41,132 nt of DNA from a virus. The position numbers were made by a program, and so were the translations under genes. Shown here piece after piece: positions 1,532-10,827 of this stretch (positions within the stretch are counted from its first letter, which is position 1; each line of letters starts with the position of its first letter). The notes beneath the pieces are model-generated. The model did not search any database. It was not told where the DNA came from and worked only from the letters and a program-made list of their open reading frames with translations. The DNA lies in the IMG/VR virus record IMGVR_UViG_3300025086_000074, positions 1 through 41,132 of that record. One strand, given 5' to 3'.

Positions 1532-3244
1532 ATGCAAGTCGAAGAAATCGAAATAAATGGTTTTCAAATTGAAAACTTTAATCAGCACGGCTTAGACGTA
1601 GGTAAATCACAGGGGACTTGTCCCCTGTGTTCTTCTTCTAGAAAACCTGAGAATAGAAAAGCAAAATGTGCTAGCTATGATTGGGAGCGTGGTCTTGGTA
1701 CTTGTCATAACTGTGATAGCACTTTTCAAATGCACACATACAAACGTAAAGGTAAAGCTGAACGTGACTATGTTATGCCTGAAATTAACAAGGTTGACCC
1801 TGTTAAAGATAAGACGTTAGAATGGTTTAAAACACGTGGTATATCTAAAGATACGTTAGATGAATTAAAAGTCTCTACTGGATCTGAATATATGCCTCAA
1901 ACCGGCAAGACCGAGAATACTATCCAATTTAACTATTATGTAGGTGGACAACTTACTAATGTTAAATACAGAGATGCTCGTAAGAACTTTAAGTTATACA
2001 AAGGAGCTGAAAAAGTATTTTATAATATAGACAATATTGTAGGTCATGATACCTGTGTTATTGTTGAAGGCGAAATGGACGTGTTAGCTTTACATGAAGC
2101 TGGTATACCAAACGCGATATCAGTTCCCAATGGAGCTACATTAAATTCAAACAATTTAGACTATCTAGACAACTGTATTGATTATTTTGATGATATGTCT
2201 AAAATAATTATTGCAGTTGATTCAGATGCGCCGGGACAAGCCCTACAAACTGAATTGATACGTAGACTTGGAGCTGAGACTTGTTTCTTGGCTACATTTG
2301 ATGATTGCAAAGATGCTAACGAGTACTTAACCAAGTACTCTAGTAAGGAGCTATTGTCACGTATAACAAATGCAAAACCAGTACCGTTAGAAAACGTTAC
2401 TACATTTAGAGATATAGAAGATGAAATTACAGACTTTGTTAGAAACGGTTTTAAACGTGGCTATACTATTGGCCTTAATAATTTTGATTCAATTTTTAGT
2501 ACATATACTAAGCAGTTTATTACTGTAACTGGTATACCTAGTTCAGGTAAATCAGATTTTGTAGATCAAATGTGTGTAGGTTATAATAAAGAGTATGGTT
2601 GGAAAACAGCTTTTGCTTCACCAGAAAATGCTCCTACATATTTGCATGCACATAAGTTAATGCGTAAAGTATGGGGTGATATGCCTGAAAAAGGTCATAT
2701 TGGTGGAGACAAATGGAATCAAGTAGCAGATCATGTTAATGATAACTTTTTCTTTATTGATATGGAACGTTACACTCTTGAGTCTGTACTACGTAAAGGG
2801 GCTGAACTTGTGAAACGTAAAGGTATTAAATGTTTAGTTATTGATCCATTTAATAAAGTTAGAGACGTTGACTGTAAAACAGAAGATGTTAATCGTTATA
2901 CAATGGAGTATTTAACTAAGATTGAAACATTCGCTAAGAAATATGATGTGCTAGTGTTTATAGTAGCTCATCCAACTAAGATGTATAAAACACAAGATGG
3001 TAAAATTGAAGAGCCAACAATGTACAACATTAAAGGTGGTGGAGAATGGTATGACGCATCATATCATGGTCTGCTCGTACATAGAGACTATGAAGCTAGA
3101 ACGACAAAAGTTAAAATACTTAAATGTAAATTTCAAAACCTCGGGGAAAACGGAGCTGAAGCATTCTTCACTTGGGAACCGAGATCAGGATGTTTTGTAC
3201 CTCACGTACAACCTGAATTAGAAGAAAAAATGCCATGGGAATAA
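1532..3244 (+). CDS. Bifunctional DNA primase-helicase (T7 gp4-like)
   Basis: A 570-residue protein with the complete domain order of T7 gp4-type enzymes. It has an N-terminal zinc ribbon with Cys30, Cys33, Cys58 and Cys61, and a TOPRIM primase core with VEGEMD (178-183) and the acidic pair at Asp230/Asp232. The C-terminal RecA-like helicase has Walker A GIPSSGKS (334-341), Walker B LVIDPF (435-440), a VAHPTK segment (478-483) and KGGGEWYDASY (501-511). It would unwind DNA at the replication fork and lay down primers. The ATG follows the SSB stop after 13 A/T-rich bases. No replicative polymerase lies in the window, so the partner is presumably encoded further left. All recognisable catalytic motifs look intact. 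Confidence 0.93.
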   Translation: MQVEEIEINGFQIENFNQHGLDVGKSQGTCPLCSSSRKPENRKAKCASYDWERGLGTCHNCDSTFQMHTYKRKGKAERDYVMPEINKVDPVKDKTLEWFKTRGISKDTLDELKVSTGSEYMPQTGKTENTIQFNYYVGGQLTNVKYRDARKNFKLYKGAEKVFYNIDNIVGHDTCVIVEGEMDVLALHEAGIPNAISVPNGATLNSNNLDYLDNCIDYFDDMSKIIIAVDSDAPGQALQTELIRRLGAETCFLATFDDCKDANEYLTKYSSKELLSRITNAKPVPLENVTTFRDIEDEITDFVRNGFKRGYTIGLNNFDSIFSTYTKQFITVTGIPSSGKSDFVDQMCVGYNKEYGWKTAFASPENAPTYLHAHKLMRKVWGDMPEKGHIGGDKWNQVADHVNDNFFFIDMERYTLESVLRKGAELVKRKGIKCLVIDPFNKVRDVDCKTEDVNRYTMEYLTKIETFAKKYDVLVFIVAHPTKMYKTQDGKIEEPTMYNIKGGGEWYDASYHGLLVHRDYEARTTKVKILKCKFQNLGENGAEAFFTWEPRSGCFVPHVQPELEEKMPWE

Positions 3245-3496
3245 ATGTTGCCTAAAAAAGTTGATTGGAAACCACCATTGTGGAATAAAGAAAACACAAT
3301 AGCTTATAAATGGTGTATTGAACATGGTATTAAAATATACTCCGTGCCTTGCGGTAAAGGTTTTAATAATAAAACTTGTTGGATAGAGGTAAATGTAAAC
3401 GGAAGAAAAAAGTTAAGTCCAAAAACTTATGGTCCAACAGAATTATGGCCTAAAGTTATGGAACTATATAAATTTTATTATGATAAAAACATTTAA
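3245..3496 (+). CDS. Small conserved-looking hypothetical protein (83 aa)
   Basis: I do not recognise this protein. It is 83 residues, basic and rich in aromatic residues (several Trp and Tyr), with two cysteines (around residues 24 and 36), a strand-like WIEVNVNGRKKL segment and a helical C-terminus. Its ATG follows directly on the primase-helicase stop (no spacer) and its 3' end overlaps the start of the hydroxymethylase gene by 17 bases. It therefore sits inside the operon and is very likely translated. No signal peptide or membrane span is visible. A small DNA-binding or accessory replication factor would fit the neighbourhood, but nothing in the sequence proves it. Confidence 0.7.
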   Translation: MLPKKVDWKPPLWNKENTIAYKWCIEHGIKIYSVPCGKGFNNKTCWIEVNVNGRKKLSPKTYGPTELWPKVMELYKFYYDKNI

Positions 3497-4196
3497 TAAT
3501 AGATTTAAAAACGCTGATGAAGCTTTTCAGTATTGGTATCAATGTATAGAAAATTATGGTACAGACTTTGCTGGAACAAAAGCTTTGTTTAATATAGGAT
3601 TTGAAATGGATATACCAGGTCAAAATCAAATTACACACAAATGGCGTAACTGGAAAGAAGATTATGCAGAAGCTGAATGGCGATGGTATTTATCAGGTGA
3701 TAGAAACATAGAAACATTAGGAGAGATATACGGTAAAGTACCTGCTATATGGAAACGTATGGCAGACGATCATGGTGATGTTAACTCTAATTATGGTTGG
3801 CAATGGGAAAGAGGTTATCAATTAGATAAAGTTATAGAAATGCTAAGAAAAAACCCCGATACAAGACAAGCTACAATATCAATTTACGATGGTAAGGAAA
3901 TAGGCAGATATAAGTATGATACTCCATGCACTTACGCAATACAATTCACAGTTGTAAATAATCATTTGAATATGTGTGTCACGATGCGATCTAATGATCT
4001 CTGGTTCGGTTTCTGTAATGATCAGTATTGTTTTTCACAATTACAAAAATTAGTTGCAGATGAGACAGATTATGACATTGGTACATATTATCACTTTGCA
4101 CATAATTTACATTTATACGAGCGAGATCTTGGTAAGTTCTTGACTACGAAAGAGAAAGGACCAGCGCAATCAAGAGCAGACGAATATGGATGGTGA
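3480..4196 (+). CDS. Deoxycytidylate (dCMP) hydroxymethylase-like enzyme, thymidylate synthase fold
   Basis: A 238-residue protein of the thymidylate synthase superfamily. Catalytic positions are present: Glu66, Trp91, Tyr105 (in NSNYGW), the nucleophile Cys150, Arg170/Ser171/Asp173 (MRSND) and His211/Tyr213. Three features match T4 dCMP hydroxymethylase (gp42) rather than TS: Cys is followed by Thr (CT, not the TS CH), the MRSND phrase, and FGFCND, which puts Asp181 where TS has the dUMP-specific Asn (E. coli Asn177). Asp there (T4 Asp179) selects dCMP. The predicted product is 5-hydroxymethyl-dCMP, made with methylene-tetrahydrofolate. Length is close to T4 gp42 (246). I chose ATG 3480; the frame opens to ATG 3429, which would overlap the previous gene more. 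A dCMP or dUMP methylase activity cannot be excluded from sequence alone. Confidence 0.82.
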   Translation: MIKTFNNRFKNADEAFQYWYQCIENYGTDFAGTKALFNIGFEMDIPGQNQITHKWRNWKEDYAEAEWRWYLSGDRNIETLGEIYGKVPAIWKRMADDHGDVNSNYGWQWERGYQLDKVIEMLRKNPDTRQATISIYDGKEIGRYKYDTPCTYAIQFTVVNNHLNMCVTMRSNDLWFGFCNDQYCFSQLQKLVADETDYDIGTYYHFAHNLHLYERDLGKFLTTKEKGPAQSRADEYGW

Positions 4197-4992
4197 TATA
4201 ATATATTATTTATACCATATCCCGGGTAAAAAAATAGGGGTAACACGTAATCTTAATAGCAGGGTTACCGAACAACAAGGCTATAGCCCAGACGAATATG
4301 AAGTTCTAGATCAAAGCACAGATATCGATTATATATCAAGCCGCGAGTTAGAACTTCAAAAGTCTTACGGCTATAAAGTAGACCTTAAACCATATAAACA
4401 ATTATTTAAAATGAAAATAAACGCAACTGAACAAACCAGTACATTTCCAGTTCCATTAGACAAACTAAAAGGTAGATTAATGGATGAGTTAGGTAAGACG
4501 TGGGAAACAGTACATGGTACTTTTAAAATAACAAAAGAATCTATAGATTGGATAATGAAAAACGCGTCTACGTCTATGTTTAACAAGAAGAGATCTTATA
4601 TATATAATAAATCTTTTTATGAAGCTTTTCTTAACGAAGCTAAGCATGAAGCTACTTTGTTTTATAATCAGTTAAAAGATAGAGCAAATGGTGTTGAAAA
4701 AAATAGATTTCAATTAATTAGAGATTGGGCATATGAAAGAGGACTTTACGATAAAGGAGATGTTAAAACTCAATATTGTAAACTAATGGAAGAAGCCGGA
4801 GAACTTGGTAGATCAATATTAAAAGACGATCAAGTTGAATTTGTAGATGCTATAGGAGACATGGTTGTTGTCTTGACTAATTTAGCTATGCTAGGAGGAA
4901 CATCAATTGAAACATGCATTGATTCCGCTTATAATGAGATTAAAGATCGTAAAGGTGGAATGAAAAACGGTACATTTGTAAAAAATGAGTGA
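4186..4992 (+). CDS. Fusion of GIY-YIG-like domain and MazG-type NTP pyrophosphohydrolase
   Basis: A 268-residue two-domain protein. Residues 5-70 resemble a GIY-YIG nuclease module: a tyrosine-rich IIYYLY strand, KIGVT at 16-20, Arg26 and a RELELQKSYGY helix (Glu54/Glu56). Residues 172-268 are a clear MazG all-alpha pyrophosphohydrolase domain: EEAGE (202-206), EFVDAIGD (218-225) supplying Mg-binding acidic residues, then the RKGGMKNGTFVK C-terminus typical of phage MazG proteins. The middle (80-170) is unassigned. MazG domains hydrolyse (d)NTP to (d)NMP plus PPi. Overlapping the hydroxymethylase stop by 11 bases, it is a candidate dCTPase that would supply dCMP and deplete dCTP. Whether the GIY-YIG part is catalytic is uncertain. 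Confidence 0.8.
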   Translation: MDGDIIYYLYHIPGKKIGVTRNLNSRVTEQQGYSPDEYEVLDQSTDIDYISSRELELQKSYGYKVDLKPYKQLFKMKINATEQTSTFPVPLDKLKGRLMDELGKTWETVHGTFKITKESIDWIMKNASTSMFNKKRSYIYNKSFYEAFLNEAKHEATLFYNQLKDRANGVEKNRFQLIRDWAYERGLYDKGDVKTQYCKLMEEAGELGRSILKDDQVEFVDAIGDMVVVLTNLAMLGGTSIETCIDSAYNEIKDRKGGMKNGTFVKNE

Positions 4993-5089
4993 TTACCAAC
5001 AAACAATGACAGCTATAATAGCCGTTCAATTTATCGGCTTTTTATTAATATTTATATGGACAAAAACAGATGACAGAAAAAACAATTAA
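4985..5089 (+). CDS. Tiny single-span membrane protein (34 aa)
   Basis: A short ORF of 34 codons, ATG 4985 to TAA 5089. It encodes a polar N-terminus, a hydrophobic stretch of about 17-18 residues (AIIAVQFIGFLLIFIW, residues 10-25) and a charged KTDDRKNN tail, the layout of a small membrane protein with one span. It overlaps the MazG fusion stop by 8 bases and the next gene start by 20 bases, the same overlap style as the rest of the operon, which argues that it is real. Function is unknown. Because it is so short, chance cannot be excluded. Confidence 0.5.
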   Translation: MSDYQQTMTAIIAVQFIGFLLIFIWTKTDDRKNN

Positions 5090-5357
5090 ATTCAGAGATC
5101 CTGTTGTAGAGACAGTTGTAGATAAGTTTGTAAGTCGATCAGACGTAGGCTTTAAAAAGTATGGTCAAACCCTACATAAAGAACGTAAGACTGGAGTTAA
5201 AGATCTTGCAGCATATCTAAATGATGTACAAGAGGAATTAATGGACGCAATATTATATATTCAAGCAGCTAAAGATGAGCTGTCTGAAGCTAAAGACAAA
5301 GTCTATGGCGAAAGTATTAACGGTTTACCTTACTATGTCTCGGATATTGCGTCGTAA
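5070..5357 (+). CDS. Small MazG-like / phage nucleotide pyrophosphohydrolase-like protein
   Basis: A 95-residue protein with an RSDVGFKKYGQTL segment (about 23-35) and a helix VQEELMDAILYIQ (53-65). The pattern R-x3-G-x2-KYG followed by EEL-x-DA-x2-Y is shared by many small phage proteins of the MazG-like all-alpha pyrophosphohydrolase group, where EEL and Asp bind metal. Only one half of a canonical MazG motif set is clear, so it may work as a dimer or be a non-catalytic relative. It lies two genes after the hydroxymethylase and adjacent to the MazG fusion, which supports a role in dNTP pool control. Its C-terminus overlaps the resolvase gene by 23 bases. Confidence 0.55.
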   Translation: MTEKTIKFRDPVVETVVDKFVSRSDVGFKKYGQTLHKERKTGVKDLAAYLNDVQEELMDAILYIQAAKDELSEAKDKVYGESINGLPYYVSDIAS

Positions 5358-5787
5358 GAAGCAAGGTCCGGTTAGAGCTAAGAAGAAAGTTGTAGATGGT
5401 ATAGAATTTAAGTCAGGACTTGAAGCATATATGTATAAAGCTTTAAAAGAAGCAGGTATACAAGCAGAGTACGAAGGGATTACTTATGAACTAATCCCTT
5501 CATTTGACTTTAAAAACAAATGTTATGAAAGACAAGCAAACTCTAAAGGAGAGTATAGAGATAGAGGAGGCAAAGCAATACGTAAAGTCACTTATACACC
5601 AGATTTTACTGGAGATGGATTTATCATTGAGTGTAAAGGAAGGCCAAACGAATCTTTTCCTATACGTTGGAAACTTTTTAAGAAATATGCCTCAAAAAAA
5701 TTACTTAAAATTAATATCTACAAACCTCAAAATCAAAAAGAATGCGACGAAACCGTAAGCTTAATTCTTGGGAACAAAAAGACCTAG
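5335..5787 (+). CDS. PD-(D/E)XK endonuclease, DUF1064 / T7 endonuclease I-like resolvase
   Basis: A 150-residue nuclease. Motifs in order are SGLEAYMYKAL (Glu30), YTPDF (Asp90), IIECKGR (Glu99, Lys101) and FPIRWKLFKKY, the E...D...ExK arrangement of small phage PD-(D/E)XK endonucleases of the DUF1064 and T7 endonuclease I types, which cut branched DNA and Holliday junctions. The N-terminus is strongly basic (RRKK, RAKKK). ATG 5335 is preferred over the upstream in-frame ATG 5275 because the earlier start adds an unrelated leader wholly inside the preceding gene. Context next to replication and recombination genes supports debranching of replication intermediates before packaging. Confidence 0.75.
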   Translation: MSRILRRKKQGPVRAKKKVVDGIEFKSGLEAYMYKALKEAGIQAEYEGITYELIPSFDFKNKCYERQANSKGEYRDRGGKAIRKVTYTPDFTGDGFIIECKGRPNESFPIRWKLFKKYASKKLLKINIYKPQNQKECDETVSLILGNKKT

Positions 5788-5903: not shown

Positions 5904-6108
5904 AATGAAGAATAAAATAGACTCAATGACTAGAATTATTCAGCATTTAATAAATGAAAATACACAGCTAAGGGATTTAGCTATTGGGACTTTAGAAACA
6001 GTAAAATTAATGCCTGGTTACGATAAGGCTATAGAGTCTTTAAAAAAAGAAATAACAACAAAAAAAGAGGTAAAAGAAGATGGAGTTATCGAACAAGATA
6101 CTAAGTGA
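5881..6108 (+). CDS. Small coiled-coil hypothetical protein (75 aa)
   Basis: A 75-residue, probably all-helical protein with heptad-like hydrophobic spacing (MKNKIDSMTRIIQHLINEN, about residues 9-27) followed by a charged Lys/Glu-rich tail. No catalytic motif, signal peptide or membrane segment is visible. It overlaps the small basic gene before it by 23 bases and the ribonucleotide reductase start by 29 bases, so it belongs to the same polycistronic unit. I do not recognise the family; the heptad pattern suggests oligomerisation. Confidence 0.6.
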   Translation: MKESTLLEMKNKIDSMTRIIQHLINENTQLRDLAIGTLETVKLMPGYDKAIESLKKEITTKKEVKEDGVIEQDTK

Positions 6109-7942
6109 TGTAACAGTTTATATGAAATATGCAAAATATATCCCTGAATTAAGCCGTAGGGAGACATGGGACGAACTAGTAACACGTAACATGAATATGC
6201 ATATTAAAAAATATCCTGAGCTCACAGATGACATTAAAACAACATATAAATTGGTCTATGATAAAAAGATTTTACCGAGTATGCGGTCACTTCAGTTCGG
6301 AGGTAAGCCGATTGAAATATCACCTAATCGTGTTTATAATTGTGCTTACTTACCTATCGATCATATTGAATCGTTTAATGAGATAATGTTCTTATTACTT
6401 GGTGGTACTGGTGTGGGTTATTCTGTGCAAGATCATCATGTTAAAAAACTAGATCCCGTCAATAAACCTTATAGTAAAAGAACTAGAAGATTTTTAATAG
6501 GTGACTCAATAGAGGGTTGGGCAGATGCTATTAAAGTATTAATGAAATCATATCTTGGTGATAAAAGAAATTCACGAATAGAGTTTGATTACTCTGATAT
6601 ACGCCCTAAGGGTGCAATGTTAGTAACGTCTGGTGGTAAAGCACCGGGACCTCAACCACTTAAAGAATGTATAGTAAAAATAACAGGAGTTTTAGATTCA
6701 AAGGAGGATGGCGATATGCTCTCCACTATAGAAGTACACGATATAGTTTGCCATATTGCAGACGCCGTCTTAGCTGGTGGAATACGTCGAGCAGCTTTGA
6801 TAAGTCTGTTCTCAGCGGACGACGAGGAGATGATCTCTTGCAAGTCTGGAAACTGGTGGGAAACAAACCCACAAAGAGGTAGAGCTAATAACTCTGCTGT
6901 ACTTATGAGACATAAAATAACTAAAGAGTTTTTTATGGATCTATGGAAACGTGTTGAACTATCAGGTGCAGGAGAACCTGGTATATATTTTAATAATGAT
7001 AAAGACTGGGGTACAAACCCTTGTTGTGAAATAGCTTTACGACCTAATCAGTTTTGTAACTTATGTGAAGTAAACGCTAGTGATATAGAGTCACAAGATG
7101 ATTTTAATAACAGAGTGAAAGCAGCTGCGTTCATTGGAACGTTACAAGCTGGATATACAGATTTTCACTACTTAAGAGATGTATGGAAAGAAACAACAGA
7201 GAAAGACGCTTTAATAGGCGTCTCGATGACTGGGATAGGCTCGGGTACGGTGTTAGGATACGACATGAAGAAAGCCGCTCAAATAGTAAAACGAGAAAAC
7301 GCAAGAGTCGCGAAAGTGATTGGAATTAATCCATCAGCTAGATGTACAACCGTAAAACCCGCAGGGACGACGTCTCTGGCGTTAGGAACATCGTCTGGTA
7401 TTCACGCATGGCATAATGATTATTATGTGCGTAGGATCAGAGTTGGTAAAAATGAATCTATATATAAATACTTAGCGGAAAATCACCCAATGCTAGTTGA
7501 AGATGAGTTTTTTAGACCTCACGATACTGCTGTGATTAGTATACCGCAAAAAGCACCTGAAGGTTCTATACTTAGAACTGAATCACCTTTTCAATTACTT
7601 GAACGTATAAAAAAGGTAGCTACAGAATGGGTTGCACCTGGTCATAGAAAAGGATCTAATACTCACAATGTTTCTGCTACAATTAGTTTAAAAGCTGAAG
7701 AATGGGAAACAGCGGGTGAATGGATGTGGGATAACAGAAAGTATTACAATGGTCTTTCAGTACTACCATTTGATGGTGGAACATATACTCAAGCTCCTTT
7801 CGAGGATATTGACGAAGGAACTTATATAAATAAGTTACAACATTTAAAAGATATAAATTTAGAACATGTTATCGAAACTGAAGACAACACTGATCTTAGT
7901 GGCGAGCTTGCTTGCGCTGGTGGTTCTTGTGAAATTACTTAA
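6080..7942 (+). CDS. nrdJ: Class II (adenosylcobalamin-dependent) ribonucleoside-triphosphate reductase
   Basis: A 620-residue monomer-type class II ribonucleotide reductase, which makes dNTPs from NTPs using coenzyme B12. Visible key residues are Cys88 (in VYNCAYL), GTGVGYSV (109-116), the NPCCE active site (Asn313, thiyl Cys315, Glu317), Cys326, the KPAGTTSLALGTSSGIH loop, and a C-terminal CAGGSC pair (Cys612, Cys617) that relays electrons. The Cys315-Cys326 spacing of 11 matches Cys408/Cys419 of the Lactobacillus leichmannii enzyme. It is shorter than that enzyme (739), as in other phage forms. No NrdB or NrdG partner is nearby, consistent with class II. It starts inside the preceding gene (29-base overlap) and supplies deoxynucleotides for phage replication. 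Confidence 0.9.
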   Translation: MELSNKILSDVTVYMKYAKYIPELSRRETWDELVTRNMNMHIKKYPELTDDIKTTYKLVYDKKILPSMRSLQFGGKPIEISPNRVYNCAYLPIDHIESFNEIMFLLLGGTGVGYSVQDHHVKKLDPVNKPYSKRTRRFLIGDSIEGWADAIKVLMKSYLGDKRNSRIEFDYSDIRPKGAMLVTSGGKAPGPQPLKECIVKITGVLDSKEDGDMLSTIEVHDIVCHIADAVLAGGIRRAALISLFSADDEEMISCKSGNWWETNPQRGRANNSAVLMRHKITKEFFMDLWKRVELSGAGEPGIYFNNDKDWGTNPCCEIALRPNQFCNLCEVNASDIESQDDFNNRVKAAAFIGTLQAGYTDFHYLRDVWKETTEKDALIGVSMTGIGSGTVLGYDMKKAAQIVKRENARVAKVIGINPSARCTTVKPAGTTSLALGTSSGIHAWHNDYYVRRIRVGKNESIYKYLAENHPMLVEDEFFRPHDTAVISIPQKAPEGSILRTESPFQLLERIKKVATEWVAPGHRKGSNTHNVSATISLKAEEWETAGEWMWDNRKYYNGLSVLPFDGGTYTQAPFEDIDEGTYINKLQHLKDINLEHVIETEDNTDLSGELACAGGSCEIT

Positions 7943-7946
7943 TTAA

Positions 7947-9377
7947 ATGAGACGTTATTTAAACTCTCCACCTCCTCCTGGTTATAAATATGATGAAAAC
8001 TCTATAAAGAGAGGTAGAGGAGGACGGTTGTTGAAAATATCTAATACCAATCAAGAACCTGAAGAAATTGATATAAAAGAACCTATTACGGAATATACTG
8101 ACAACAAGTATAAAGGGGTTGTGTTAACATATTTAATAGGTAAATACGATGTATTACCCCCTCTAAACAAAACAGAGGGTTGGGATTACATATGTGTAAC
8201 TGACCTCTCTATTAATAGTAAAGACTGGAAAATAGTAGATTTACGTCCCGAAGATAAAGCTGTAGTCGGCAATAAGAAAAAAGCCAGTTCTATTATGTTT
8301 AACGCTTTAAATTATATAGAAAAAAAGTATGATATATTAGTGACTATGGATGCTAATATGTTTATAAATGAAGATTTAAATAGATTAGTAGATAATTATA
8401 ATTTAACTAAACAGCATATTGTTTTTTTAAGTCACCCAGAAAGACAATGTGTATATGATGAAATAAACGCACTTGTAAAAACATCAAAAGATAAAAGACA
8501 AAATGTTTTAGAAGCTAAAGAATTTTTAATAAAAGAAAATTATCCACGAGATTTAGGATTATTTGCTACTGGAGTAATGTTTTTAGATCCAAAAAGCTTA
8601 ATATTACCAAGTTACTTAAAAAATATGCGAGAAGATTATATTAACTCTCCGTCAATTAGAGATCAAGTGACTATAAATTATAGTTTATATAAGAGTATTA
8701 AAACACTTCCTCCGTTATCTTACATTACAATTCCTTTTGATGATATAGTATCTTATAAAGCTCGTAAAAAATCTACTCCTTTTATTGTATTTCCTCATAT
8801 TAAAAAAAAAGATAAAATAACAACTAAAAACAAAATAACTATATATGAAAATACTCCATATAATAATGAAAAAGATTTAGTTAAAGCTTATAATAGTTTT
8901 ATGAAGCTTATTCCAGATAACAGTTGGGCTTTGTTTAGAGATGCAGACACCTTATTTTTAGATAGTCATTATAATGAGTTACTTGAGCAAGCTATAATAA
9001 ATAATCCAGATACTTTTTGCTTTACAGGAGTAACAAATAGAATAAATAATAAAAAGCAATTACACGATGAATATAAAGGAGATGACATAAGCATACATAG
9101 AAAAATAGCAGAAAAATTAAGGAAGAAATATGGATATGCTTGTGAAGAACTTAAGCATCCTAATTACTTAAGTGGTTTTTGTATATTAATTAAGAAATCA
9201 GTATGGAAAAAAATAAATGGTTTTAAACAATGGAATAATAAAAGCAAAATATTAGGAGTGGATAATAAATTACACAAAGATTTAATAGCTCACAATGAAT
9301 CTATAAATGTTATAAAAGGGTTATATATGTACCACTGGTACAGAGGAGGAACAACTAATAAAAAACACTTACTATGA
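7947..9377 (+). CDS. Two-domain glycosyltransferase (DUF616-like plus GT-A domain)
   Basis: A 476-residue protein with two apparent sugar-transferase units. The first (about 55-260) has VVLTYLIGKYDVL, a YICVTD strand (81-86) and MDANMFINEDL (134-144), resembling DUF616/TOD1-type glycosyltransferase domains. The second (about 290-476) has WALFRDADTLFLD with a DxD-like metal site at Asp332/Asp334, then SGFCILIKKSVWKKINGF and VDNKLHKDLI, as in GT-A fold family 2-like enzymes. The N-terminal 50 residues are a Pro/Arg/Gly-rich extension. It starts four bases after the reductase stop, so it remains in the early operon. The DNA becomes visibly more A+T rich here, suggesting separate acquisition. Donor and acceptor are unknown. 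Confidence 0.7.
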   Translation: MRRYLNSPPPPGYKYDENSIKRGRGGRLLKISNTNQEPEEIDIKEPITEYTDNKYKGVVLTYLIGKYDVLPPLNKTEGWDYICVTDLSINSKDWKIVDLRPEDKAVVGNKKKASSIMFNALNYIEKKYDILVTMDANMFINEDLNRLVDNYNLTKQHIVFLSHPERQCVYDEINALVKTSKDKRQNVLEAKEFLIKENYPRDLGLFATGVMFLDPKSLILPSYLKNMREDYINSPSIRDQVTINYSLYKSIKTLPPLSYITIPFDDIVSYKARKKSTPFIVFPHIKKKDKITTKNKITIYENTPYNNEKDLVKAYNSFMKLIPDNSWALFRDADTLFLDSHYNELLEQAIINNPDTFCFTGVTNRINNKKQLHDEYKGDDISIHRKIAEKLRKKYGYACEELKHPNYLSGFCILIKKSVWKKINGFKQWNNKSKILGVDNKLHKDLIAHNESINVIKGLYMYHWYRGGTTNKKHLL

Positions 9378-10114
9378 TTGATAGTAAAAAGTTATTAGAT
9401 ATAGTTTTAAAAAGTCTTAAAAATTTAAAAAGTTTTTCCTTAATTAGGATAGGTGATGGTGAAATGATTATAATAAACAATGTTAAGGATAAGATGGAAT
9501 TTTTTTGTAATAAACAAATAAATAGATCTATTACGCCATCAGAATTAAAACAGTCACAAGAGTGGTTAGAAGAATCTATAACAAAAGCTACTGTTCTAGG
9601 AAAACCAACTCAAGCTCAAATAGATAAAAGCAAACTCTGGCAAACTATAAATGATCATTATAAAAAATTAAATTTAAAAAATAAAAAATATTGCATTCAT
9701 GATATTCATTTAAACTTTTTAGATAGTGGAGATTTGTTTAAACTTTTTAAAAAAGTAGATAATATTGTTGTGGTTAGTCCAAGAAACATTAAAGATAAAT
9801 TGATAAATAAATATAATATTAAAAATGTAACTTGGTATACTTTACCAGCAGAACAGATGTATGAAGTAGAAAAAAATACTACAATAAACATTTTTGATAG
9901 AATAAAAGAAATAAGTAAAGAAATACAAAGTGAAGATAGATCTGGACAGTTACTTATATTTGGAGCTGGCCCTTTTGGTAAAATACTTGGAACTAGATTT
10001 GCAGAACAAGGAGGTATTTCTTTAGATTTAGGATGTGTATTTGACTTGTTTGTTGGTAAAAAAACTAGAGGAAAAGGAAAAGGAAATAAAAGTTTTACAA
10101 AACCTTATTTATGA
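9374..10114 (+). CDS. GT-D fold (DUF1792-type) glycosyltransferase-like protein
   Basis: A 246-residue protein. The N-terminal phrase SLIRIGDGE (Asp28, Glu30) is the signature of the GT-D/DUF1792 glycosyltransferase fold, in which a DxE motif binds the metal and sugar nucleotide. The C-terminal GQLLIFGAGPFGKIL followed by GGISLDLGCVFD (about 191-224) is also typical of that family. The ATGA overlap with the preceding glycosyltransferase (9374-9377) and with the following pyruvyl transferase (10111-10114) shows a co-translated three-gene sugar cassette. In streptococcal adhesin glycosylation a GT-D enzyme adds glucose to a glycan; the acceptor here is unknown. Confidence 0.72.
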   Translation: MIDSKKLLDIVLKSLKNLKSFSLIRIGDGEMIIINNVKDKMEFFCNKQINRSITPSELKQSQEWLEESITKATVLGKPTQAQIDKSKLWQTINDHYKKLNLKNKKYCIHDIHLNFLDSGDLFKLFKKVDNIVVVSPRNIKDKLINKYNIKNVTWYTLPAEQMYEVEKNTTINIFDRIKEISKEIQSEDRSGQLLIFGAGPFGKILGTRFAEQGGISLDLGCVFDLFVGKKTRGKGKGNKSFTKPYL

Positions 10115-10827
10115 AAAATATATATAAAGCTTGGTGGATGCAGGCAAAGCACGTTAATAATTTTGGAGATATATTAACTCCTTTAATATTAGATTACTAT
10201 AATATAAAATACGAGTATACTGAAAAATCCAAAGCAAATTTAATATGTGTAGGCTCAATAGCTAATTTTGCAAATGACAATTCTTTAGTTCTAGGATCTG
10301 GTGTAGCATATAGAAATATTTCATTAAATAATAAAGCTAAATGGCTGTTTACTAGAGGTCCGCTTACAAGAGAGAACGTGATAAAAAACAATGGTTCTTG
10401 TGAAGAAATATATGGAGATCCAGCAATGTTATTGCCTAAAATATTAAGTTCTTCTAATAAAACAGAAAATTTTGGTTATATACCACATATTAATGAATAC
10501 AAAATAATAAAAATAAAGTATCCTAAAAAAAATATAATAAATTTAAATAATCCAAATGTTAAAGAAGTGATAAAACAAATAACATCTTGCAGAAAAATTA
10601 TGTCAAGTTCTTTACATGGAGTAATAGCAGCACACGCATACGGTATACCCGTAGCTCATGTGAATTTTACTGAAGGAATTATACAAGGAGATGGAACTAA
10701 ATATAAAGATCATTACGCCGCAATTAATATACCTCACAACGTATCAACTATAGATAATCCTATATTTACTGATTGCAATAATTTTGACACATCTAAAATA
10801 GAAGATATTTTTAAATCTTTAAAATAA
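10111..10827 (+). CDS. Polysaccharide pyruvyl transferase family protein
   Basis: A 238-residue protein of the polysaccharide pyruvyl transferase family (CsaB/WcaK/ExoV-like). Characteristic segments are NNFGDILTPLIL (16-27), LICVGSI (44-50), LGSGV (61-65), TRGPLTRENV (81-90), YGDPAMLLPK (101-110) and SSSLHGVIAAHAYGIP (165-180). The RGPLTR, GDPA and SLHG-IAAHAYG blocks form the active-site core. Family members attach ketal-linked pyruvate from PEP to sugars; some relatives act as glycosyltransferase-like enzymes. It is shorter than most members, but the core blocks are present in order. Last gene of the plus-strand operon, it ends seven bases before a strong hairpin. The substrate could be a phage-DNA sugar, a virion glycan or a host surface glycan. 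Confidence 0.82.
   Translation: MKNIYKAWWMQAKHVNNFGDILTPLILDYYNIKYEYTEKSKANLICVGSIANFANDNSLVLGSGVAYRNISLNNKAKWLFTRGPLTRENVIKNNGSCEEIYGDPAMLLPKILSSSNKTENFGYIPHINEYKIIKIKYPKKNIINLNNPNVKEVIKQITSCRKIMSSSLHGVIAAHAYGIPVAHVNFTEGIIQGDGTKYKDHYAAINIPHNVSTIDNPIFTDCNNFDTSKIEDIFKSLK

Follow-up and report, generated by a model that had tools for sequence, protein, structure and literature searches.

We analyzed a 41,132-nucleotide stretch of viral DNA, the complete IMG/VR record IMGVR_UViG_3300025086_000074 (the window), and in particular its genes at positions 3480–5357, which encode a thymidylate synthase (TS)-fold protein, a MazG fusion protein and a small protein here termed KYG. The three genes probably form the "hydroxymethyl" version of a cytosine-modification cassette, whereas sister phages appear to hold a 5-methylcytosine (5mC) version. 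Comparison of the relatives makes it slightly more probable than its opposite that one phage family swaps a gp42-type deoxycytidine monophosphate (dCMP) hydroxymethylase at one locus for a dCMP methylase of the ThyA-Asn177Asp type that evolved in nature, and thereby switches its DNA between 5-hydroxymethylcytosine (5hmC) and 5mC, with a KYG allele matched to each enzyme.

In the proposed pathway, the 3480–4196 protein would take a one-carbon unit from methylene-tetrahydrofolate, attach it to C5 of dCMP and add water, yielding 5-hydroxymethyl-dCMP, as its residues suggest. The MazG domain of the 4186–4992 protein, judged by its gene association, would convert dCTP into dCMP, simultaneously feeding the hydroxymethylase and lowering the competing dCTP. 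KYG, the allele of which follows the enzyme type, may be a partner of the enzyme or a specificity factor. Host kinases and a host polymerase would complete the incorporation, because phage counterparts were not found in the relatives examined. In the sister phages, the ThyA-Asp177 enzyme in the same slot would make 5-methyl-dCMP, and the family would thus alternate between 5hmC and 5mC. The three genes are:

3480–4196, plus strand: gp42-like dCMP hydroxymethylase candidate, 238 amino acids (PF00303, 3.5e-29; Cys150 codon 3927–3929, Asp181 codon 4020–4022)
4186–4992, plus strand: N-terminal T5orf172/GIY-YIG-like segment (weak match) and C-terminal MazG-type pyrophosphohydrolase domain (about residues 174–268); dCTPase candidate
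5070–5357, plus strand: 95-residue alpha-helical KYG protein (RS..G..KYG...QEELMDA), allele matched to the TS-fold type

Residues, phylogeny and fold of the TS-fold protein

The reading frame of the TS-fold gene is open from 3429, and the start used in relatives is the ATG at 3480. All features on which the first-pass annotation had based a T4-type dCMP hydroxymethylase, namely Cys150-Thr151, MRSND (residues 169–173), FGFCND and Asp181, are present in the protein. HMMER aligns Asp181 with Asp179 of T4 gp42, which is also the best single-sequence solved relative (9e-19). In T4, Asp179 sets the preference for dCMP, and both Cys148 and Asp179 are required for activity (PMC6400193). In the reference alignment, the window protein has Cys-Thr as gp42 does (Cys148-Thr149), whereas ThyA has Cys-His and the SPO1-type dUMP hydroxymethylases have Cys-Asn. 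Moreover, Asp147, three residues before the Cys, corresponds to gp42 Asp145, whereas ThyA has Leu there. The folate-activating Glu (T4 Glu60) is kept, and the C-terminal tail of ThyA is absent. None of the 80 IMG/VR relatives found by similarity (60–87% identity) departs from Asp181, Cys150 or Thr151, so that this pattern is more than chance.

The phylogeny agrees with the residues. The ThyA clade (support 100/99) excludes the window protein, which also lacks the canonical ThyA features (Asn177, His147 and the tail). The hydroxymethylase copies from the window family together with BF486P2_32, a protein of a Bacteroides phage, form a clade (99/96) that joins gp42 (95/72), and the SPO1-type dUMP hydroxymethylases form a separate clade (100/99). 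The assignment to the T4 type rather than to ThyA is therefore well supported by residues, tree and fold. The AlphaFold2 model of the protein has a predicted local distance difference test score of 85.7, and its top six Foldseek matches are chains of MilA, a CMP hydroxymethylase, and of T4 gp42, ahead of every ThyA.

MilA is the top match in both fold and profile, and T4 gp42 and MilA are the best solved relatives by profile. The TS-fold protein PDB 9iqc, a monooxygenase bound to dCMP and FAD, is detected as well. These matches would suit another cytosine-nucleotide chemistry, either that of 9iqc or CMP hydroxymethylation as in MilA. We regard this as highly improbable, since the folate-activating Glu is kept, the 9iqc match is much weaker, and Ser171 of the window protein is the deoxyribose-type residue, whereas CMP enzymes have Ala at this position (PMC5175136). 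Collectively, residues, tree and fold make dCMP specificity very likely and hydroxymethylation the likely chemistry of the 3480–4196 protein. As a separate observation, three TS-fold proteins have been solved (PDB 9iqc, 9iqu and 9ir2), one of which, a riboflavin-dependent monooxygenase by its description, contains dCMP and FAD; such chemistry could hide among the Asp-type phage proteins.

Two enzymes at one locus and proposed exchange of the cassette

A second set of 80 relatives was collected by primase, which avoids selection on the TS-fold enzyme. All 80 carry a TS-fold gene just downstream of the primase gene. The slot holds a gp42-like hydroxymethylase in 51 of them, in which Cys, Thr and Asp occupy the three key positions without exception, and a ThyA-clade enzyme in the other 29, sharing 38–46% identity with known ThyA proteins. 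Asn177 is replaced by Asp in all 28 readable ThyA-clade copies (LGLPYDI versus LGLPFNI). These copies keep E58, W80, Y94, C146, R126, R127, R166 and D169, and mostly H147; the 14 full-length copies aligned retain a ThyA-like tail, and the 14 copies placed in the tree form one clade inside ThyA (100/100). According to papers that PMC8670742 cites, the change of Asn177 to Asp turns TS into a dCMP methylase, and the ThyA-Asn177Asp enzyme of the sister phages is predicted to make 5-methyl-dCMP. Since both slot alternatives carry the Asp, the gene preceding the MazG fusion always encodes a predicted dCMP enzyme.

The same property opens a second explanation, in which the window enzyme itself is a dCMP methylase that makes 5-methyl-dCMP as in Xp12. 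The Asp at 177 sets cytosine recognition and not reduction, and TS Asn-to-Asp mutants yield 5-methyl-dCMP (papers cited in PMC8670742). Nevertheless, the window protein has the gp42-like Cys-Thr and the Asp three residues before the Cys, has lost the ThyA tail and groups away from ThyA, and the separate ThyA-type enzyme of the sister phages suits methylation better. A methylase in the window is thus decidedly unlikely.

A single TS-family gene is found in nearly all whole records searched. The exceptions are G087, with two gp42-like genes, G053, whose ThyA-type gene lies in three pieces (intron, frameshift or assembly error), and G081; the copies in G053 and G081 are split or contig-edge pieces. 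ThyX was not found in 51 records.

The cassette lies in an early operon that runs from an Erf annealing protein, an exonuclease and a small gene to a primase-helicase, another small gene and the TS-fold gene, and continues with the MazG fusion, KYG, a DUF1064 endonuclease, small genes and a class II ribonucleotide reductase. The operon core is syntenic across 17 relatives. The neighbors outside the cassette are:

1532–3244, plus strand: primase-helicase, directly upstream of the cassette (phrog_239, 2e-88)
3245–3496, plus strand: small protein between the primase and TS-fold genes (weak phrog_5945; in 17 of 18 genomes)
5275–5787, plus strand: DUF1064/Holliday-junction-resolvase-like endonuclease
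6080–7942, plus strand: class II (B12) ribonucleotide reductase, at the operon end

Gene trees were built on 68 common loci, and changes of the enzyme-type label were counted on each tree. The label changes four times on each half of the primase, four and seven times on the two halves of the MazG gene, six times on the endonuclease and once on KYG, the allele of which co-segregates perfectly with the enzyme type. A careful KYG tree supports the single split (87/97). A tree of five structural genes requires at least three changes of enzyme type, and a single split is rejected by the approximately unbiased (AU) test (p 0.024). The endonuclease is placed outside the exchanged cassette because its AU test also rejects a single split (p=0.003). 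The other AU results are less favorable to exchange: those for the replication set (0.054) and the primase (0.053) are borderline, and a single split remains compatible with the MazG gene (0.168). The last value also weakens the idea that KYG co-segregates with the enzyme even though the intervening MazG gene does not; exchange of the whole cassette explains both.

The close pair L298 (gp42-like) and L296 (ThyA-Asp177) illustrates the pattern, with identities of 89% for the primase, 30% for the TS-fold protein, 71% for MazG, 47% for KYG and 93% for the endonuclease. The simplest reading is that the cassette from the TS-fold gene through KYG would be exchanged as a unit. In the open-licence literature we found no description of a phage family in which gp42-like and ThyA-Asp177 enzymes alternate in a single slot, and the interchangeable 5hmC/5mC cassette appears to be new.

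The MazG fusion and KYG

Wherever the flanking sequence of a relative is long enough, the MazG fusion comes after the TS-fold gene. In the window it overlaps the 3' end of the hydroxymethylase gene by 11 bases and is separated from KYG by a 77-base gap, while KYG overlaps the next gene (5275–5787). The first-pass annotation had described two overlapping MazG-like genes sharing the dCTPase job; the overlaps are instead with the outer neighbors, and the MazG assignment holds for 4186–4992 and is not supported for KYG. When scanned alone, the MazG domain matches PF03819 with 22.5 bits (cut-off 22) as well as phrog_1992/715. It contains the complete EExxE...ExxD catalytic motif, which is invariant among relatives except for the first residue of ExxD. 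The invariant residues include E202, E203, E206, D221 and D225 in this domain, and Y10, G18 and R26 at the N-terminus.

The role of the domain was approached through its neighbors, by splitting relatives of the domain alone by identity and counting TS-fold genes within 4 kb. All ten relatives with at least 60% identity, from several other phage backgrounds, lie beside a TS-fold gene, in each case with Asp177; these neighbors are gp42-like (L218, L222–224 and L228), ThyA-Asp177 (L225–226) or of a third type (L219–221). None of the 43 relatives below 59% identity has a TS-fold neighbor. Among the loci examined, this MazG subfamily thus pairs only with Asp-type TS-fold enzymes and never with the Asn-type. 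A dCTPase role of the domain is favored because the subfamily pairs exclusively with cytosine-type enzymes, and the MazG fusion is a candidate for the job by association. An earlier objection, that MazG pairs with ordinary ThyA and hence is not a dCTPase, was dropped, as those ThyA copies carry Asp177. We take the MazG domain and the T4 dCTPase gp56 to belong to the same broad superfamily.

Two side observations concern this gene and its subfamily. The GIY-YIG-like N-terminus fused to MazG recalls, possibly by coincidence, the T4 locus L113:1607–2786, where segF, a GIY-YIG homing endonuclease gene, and the dCTPase gene 56 overlap. The third-type locus (L219:1964–4285, also L220 and L221) encodes a Huwbert_67-like TS-fold protein with Asp177 and without the folate Glu58, adjoining the MazG gene and a 439-residue glutamine-amidotransferase/asparagine-synthase-like protein, and is a candidate for a different cytosine-modification cassette.

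KYG has no credible match in Pfam, NCBIfam or solved structures. In hhalign, the probability of kinship between KYG and the MazG domain is below 1%, an EExxD-like helix being the sole resemblance. An assignment by fold was also abandoned, as the AlphaFold2 model has a predicted template modeling score of 0.54 and no match in the PDB. The two KYG alleles differ: those accompanying the gp42-like enzyme have Y/F-L-x-D before QEELMDA, and those accompanying ThyA-Asp177 have W-L-x-H and a loop four residues shorter.

Known systems, pathway completeness and DNA composition

The window system resembles that of T4 in several respects. Both enzymes (gp42: PDB 1b49, 6a9b) share the TS fold, Cys-Thr, the equivalents of Asp145 and Asp179, Glu60 and the absence of the ThyA tail, and gp42 works alongside a dCTP-removing enzyme, for which the window has the MazG candidate. 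Identity between T4-type gp42 and the window enzyme is about 26–38%, and the neighbor in the window is a MazG/GIY-YIG-like fusion and not, unlike in T4, a gp56 homologue by sequence. The SPO1-type dUMP hydroxymethylases (CampHawk, JA15) share the TS fold and the Asp three residues before the Cys; unlike the window enzyme, they have Cys-Asn and Asn177.

The first-pass annotation had placed the 5hmC route outside the T-even group, a setting that is not new for Asp-type TS: gp42-like enzymes outside the T-even phages, in Bacteroides phages such as BF486P2 among others, and their link to modified cytosine are already known, the latter from the MetaGPA report (PMC8670742). The nearest annotated phage homologue is the "deoxycytidylate 5-hydroxymethyltransferase" of BF486P2 (WAX06796.1), the clade partner noted above, with 46% identity and the same key residues. 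Homologues of the MazG fusion and KYG were not found in the stretch of BF486P2 searched. This phage has a second TS-fold gene, also annotated as a dCMP hydroxymethyltransferase (L001:17156–17917), in which Glu58 is replaced by Leu and folate chemistry is doubtful; the other copy is intact.

In the MetaGPA report (PMC8670742), Asp177 TS homologues and PF01503 genes are linked to modified-cytosine contigs, the two co-occurring often specifically in such contigs, and the module further comprises DNA ligase, deaminase and carbamoyltransferase. The window family shares the Asp177, non-His147 TS homologue adjoining a MazG/PRA-PH-superfamily gene, as well as an ATP-dependent ligase (21 of 26 hydroxymethylase genomes). 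Unlike in the module, a carbamoyltransferase was not found among the conserved genes of the window relatives. Alternation of hydroxymethylase and ThyA-Asp177 at one locus is not described in the sections of that report consulted.

The sister allele has its counterpart in the Xp12 group, compared here through AXL1 and PaMx28. In Xp12, 5mC replaces all cytosine, and its relative AXL1 resists G/C-site enzymes by a genetic mechanism called unknown (PMC9206674). The "thymidylate synthase" of AXL1 (L427:6623–7564) and that of PaMx28 (L428:3883–4779) carry the same LPYD (Asp177) change, and in both phages a PRA-PH (MazG-superfamily) pyrophosphohydrolase gene adjoins it. This Asp177 TS could be the dCMP methylase behind the 5mC of Xp12-type phages. 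The window allele differs in being gp42-type, and AXL1, unlike the window, encodes a DNA polymerase, a DHFR and a dCMP deaminase of its own.

Signs of modification were sought in DNA composition. GC-containing 4-mer palindromes reach an observed/expected ratio of 0.94 in hydroxymethylase genomes, compared with 0.88 in those with ThyA-Asp177 (p ~1e-6, uncorrected for kinship), with the same direction in three tree contrasts and a flat non-palindrome control. The ratio is 0.81 in MW202828 and 0.59 in Flavobacterium phage elemoA, relatives where the hydroxymethylase gene was not found. The avoidance of GC palindromes thus seems relaxed in hydroxymethylase genomes, which is suggestive of modified DNA.

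Several results weigh against the proposed pathway. The step from 5hmdCMP to 5hmdCTP is its weakest: the search for a hydroxymethyl-dCMP kinase found no gp1-type enzyme (PF21448 in 0 of 51 records, some perhaps incomplete, with a narrow model that also missed the annotated kinase of Dickeya phage JA15) and, in the window and 17 relatives, no P-loop protein resembling a kinase. A family-A polymerase and a conserved glucosyltransferase were not found in the relatives examined either, and the route, which the first-pass annotation had called compact, retains its hydroxymethylase and MazG candidate and is otherwise incomplete. In the phosphate-binding Arg pair of gp42 (T4 Arg123 and Arg124, acting across the dimer), the first Arg is kept and the second is Gln in the window protein, a position that varies in other hydroxymethylases too. 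MazG domains of more remote kinship occur widely in phages where no TS-fold gene adjoins them, so the domain alone is not diagnostic, and hhalign found no link between it and a single T4 gp56 sequence. Finally, only three tree contrasts were available for the palindrome signal, and 6-mer palindrome avoidance does not differ between the genome types.

The missing kinase, glucosyltransferase and phage polymerase, together with the commonness of MazG-like domains in phages without TS, would also fit a general nucleotide supply, in which the TS-fold enzyme serves dTMP or dCMP salvage, MazG is a house-cleaning pyrophosphatase and virion DNA is unmodified. This account is unlikely in view of the Asp177-type residues in both alternative slot enzymes, the MetaGPA link between Asp177 TS homologues and modified-cytosine contigs (PMC8670742) and the relaxed GC palindrome avoidance.

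Relatives of this phage are about 60 kb long, so the window covers a fragment of its genome. Its terminase shares 65% identity with that of Podoviridae sp. ctfjg026 (MW202828) and 49% with those of Flavobacterium elemo phages; a Bacteroidota host is likely, though not proven. The family comprises podovirus-like phages of marine origin with genomes of ~60 kb and is related to Flavobacterium and Cellulophaga phages. Among the genes of relatives such as G002 (~60 kb) are GroEL and GroES-like ones, one resembling a sigma factor and one for an ATP-dependent ligase, with no recognized family A DNA polymerase. The ribonucleotide reductase varies: 17 of the 26 hydroxymethylase genomes have class II, none of the 14 ThyA-Asp177 genomes does, and class I-type genes occur in others. 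A search for a modification partner by gene content between these 26 and 14 genomes returned clade effects only, such as this reductase difference. At 7947–10827, the window has three genes with 26% GC, encoding a glycosyltransferase, a GT-D-like protein and a polysaccharide pyruvyl transferase, which are absent from all 17 relatives and probably form a recent surface-polysaccharide island; their absence, GC content and surface-polysaccharide-type families led us to reject them as 5hmC tailoring enzymes.

By modifying cytosine, phages protect their DNA against restriction and CRISPR and provoke defenses that recognize modified bases. If our reading is correct, a family that switches between 5hmC and 5mC through a single locus would offer a natural experiment for asking why either base is favored, and its sister allele would represent in the wild the Asn-to-Asp TS mutant of classic laboratory work. 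The family would also point to a gene that could underlie the suspected 5mC in AXL1 and other Xp12-like phages, and flag KYG as a candidate new component of the pathway.

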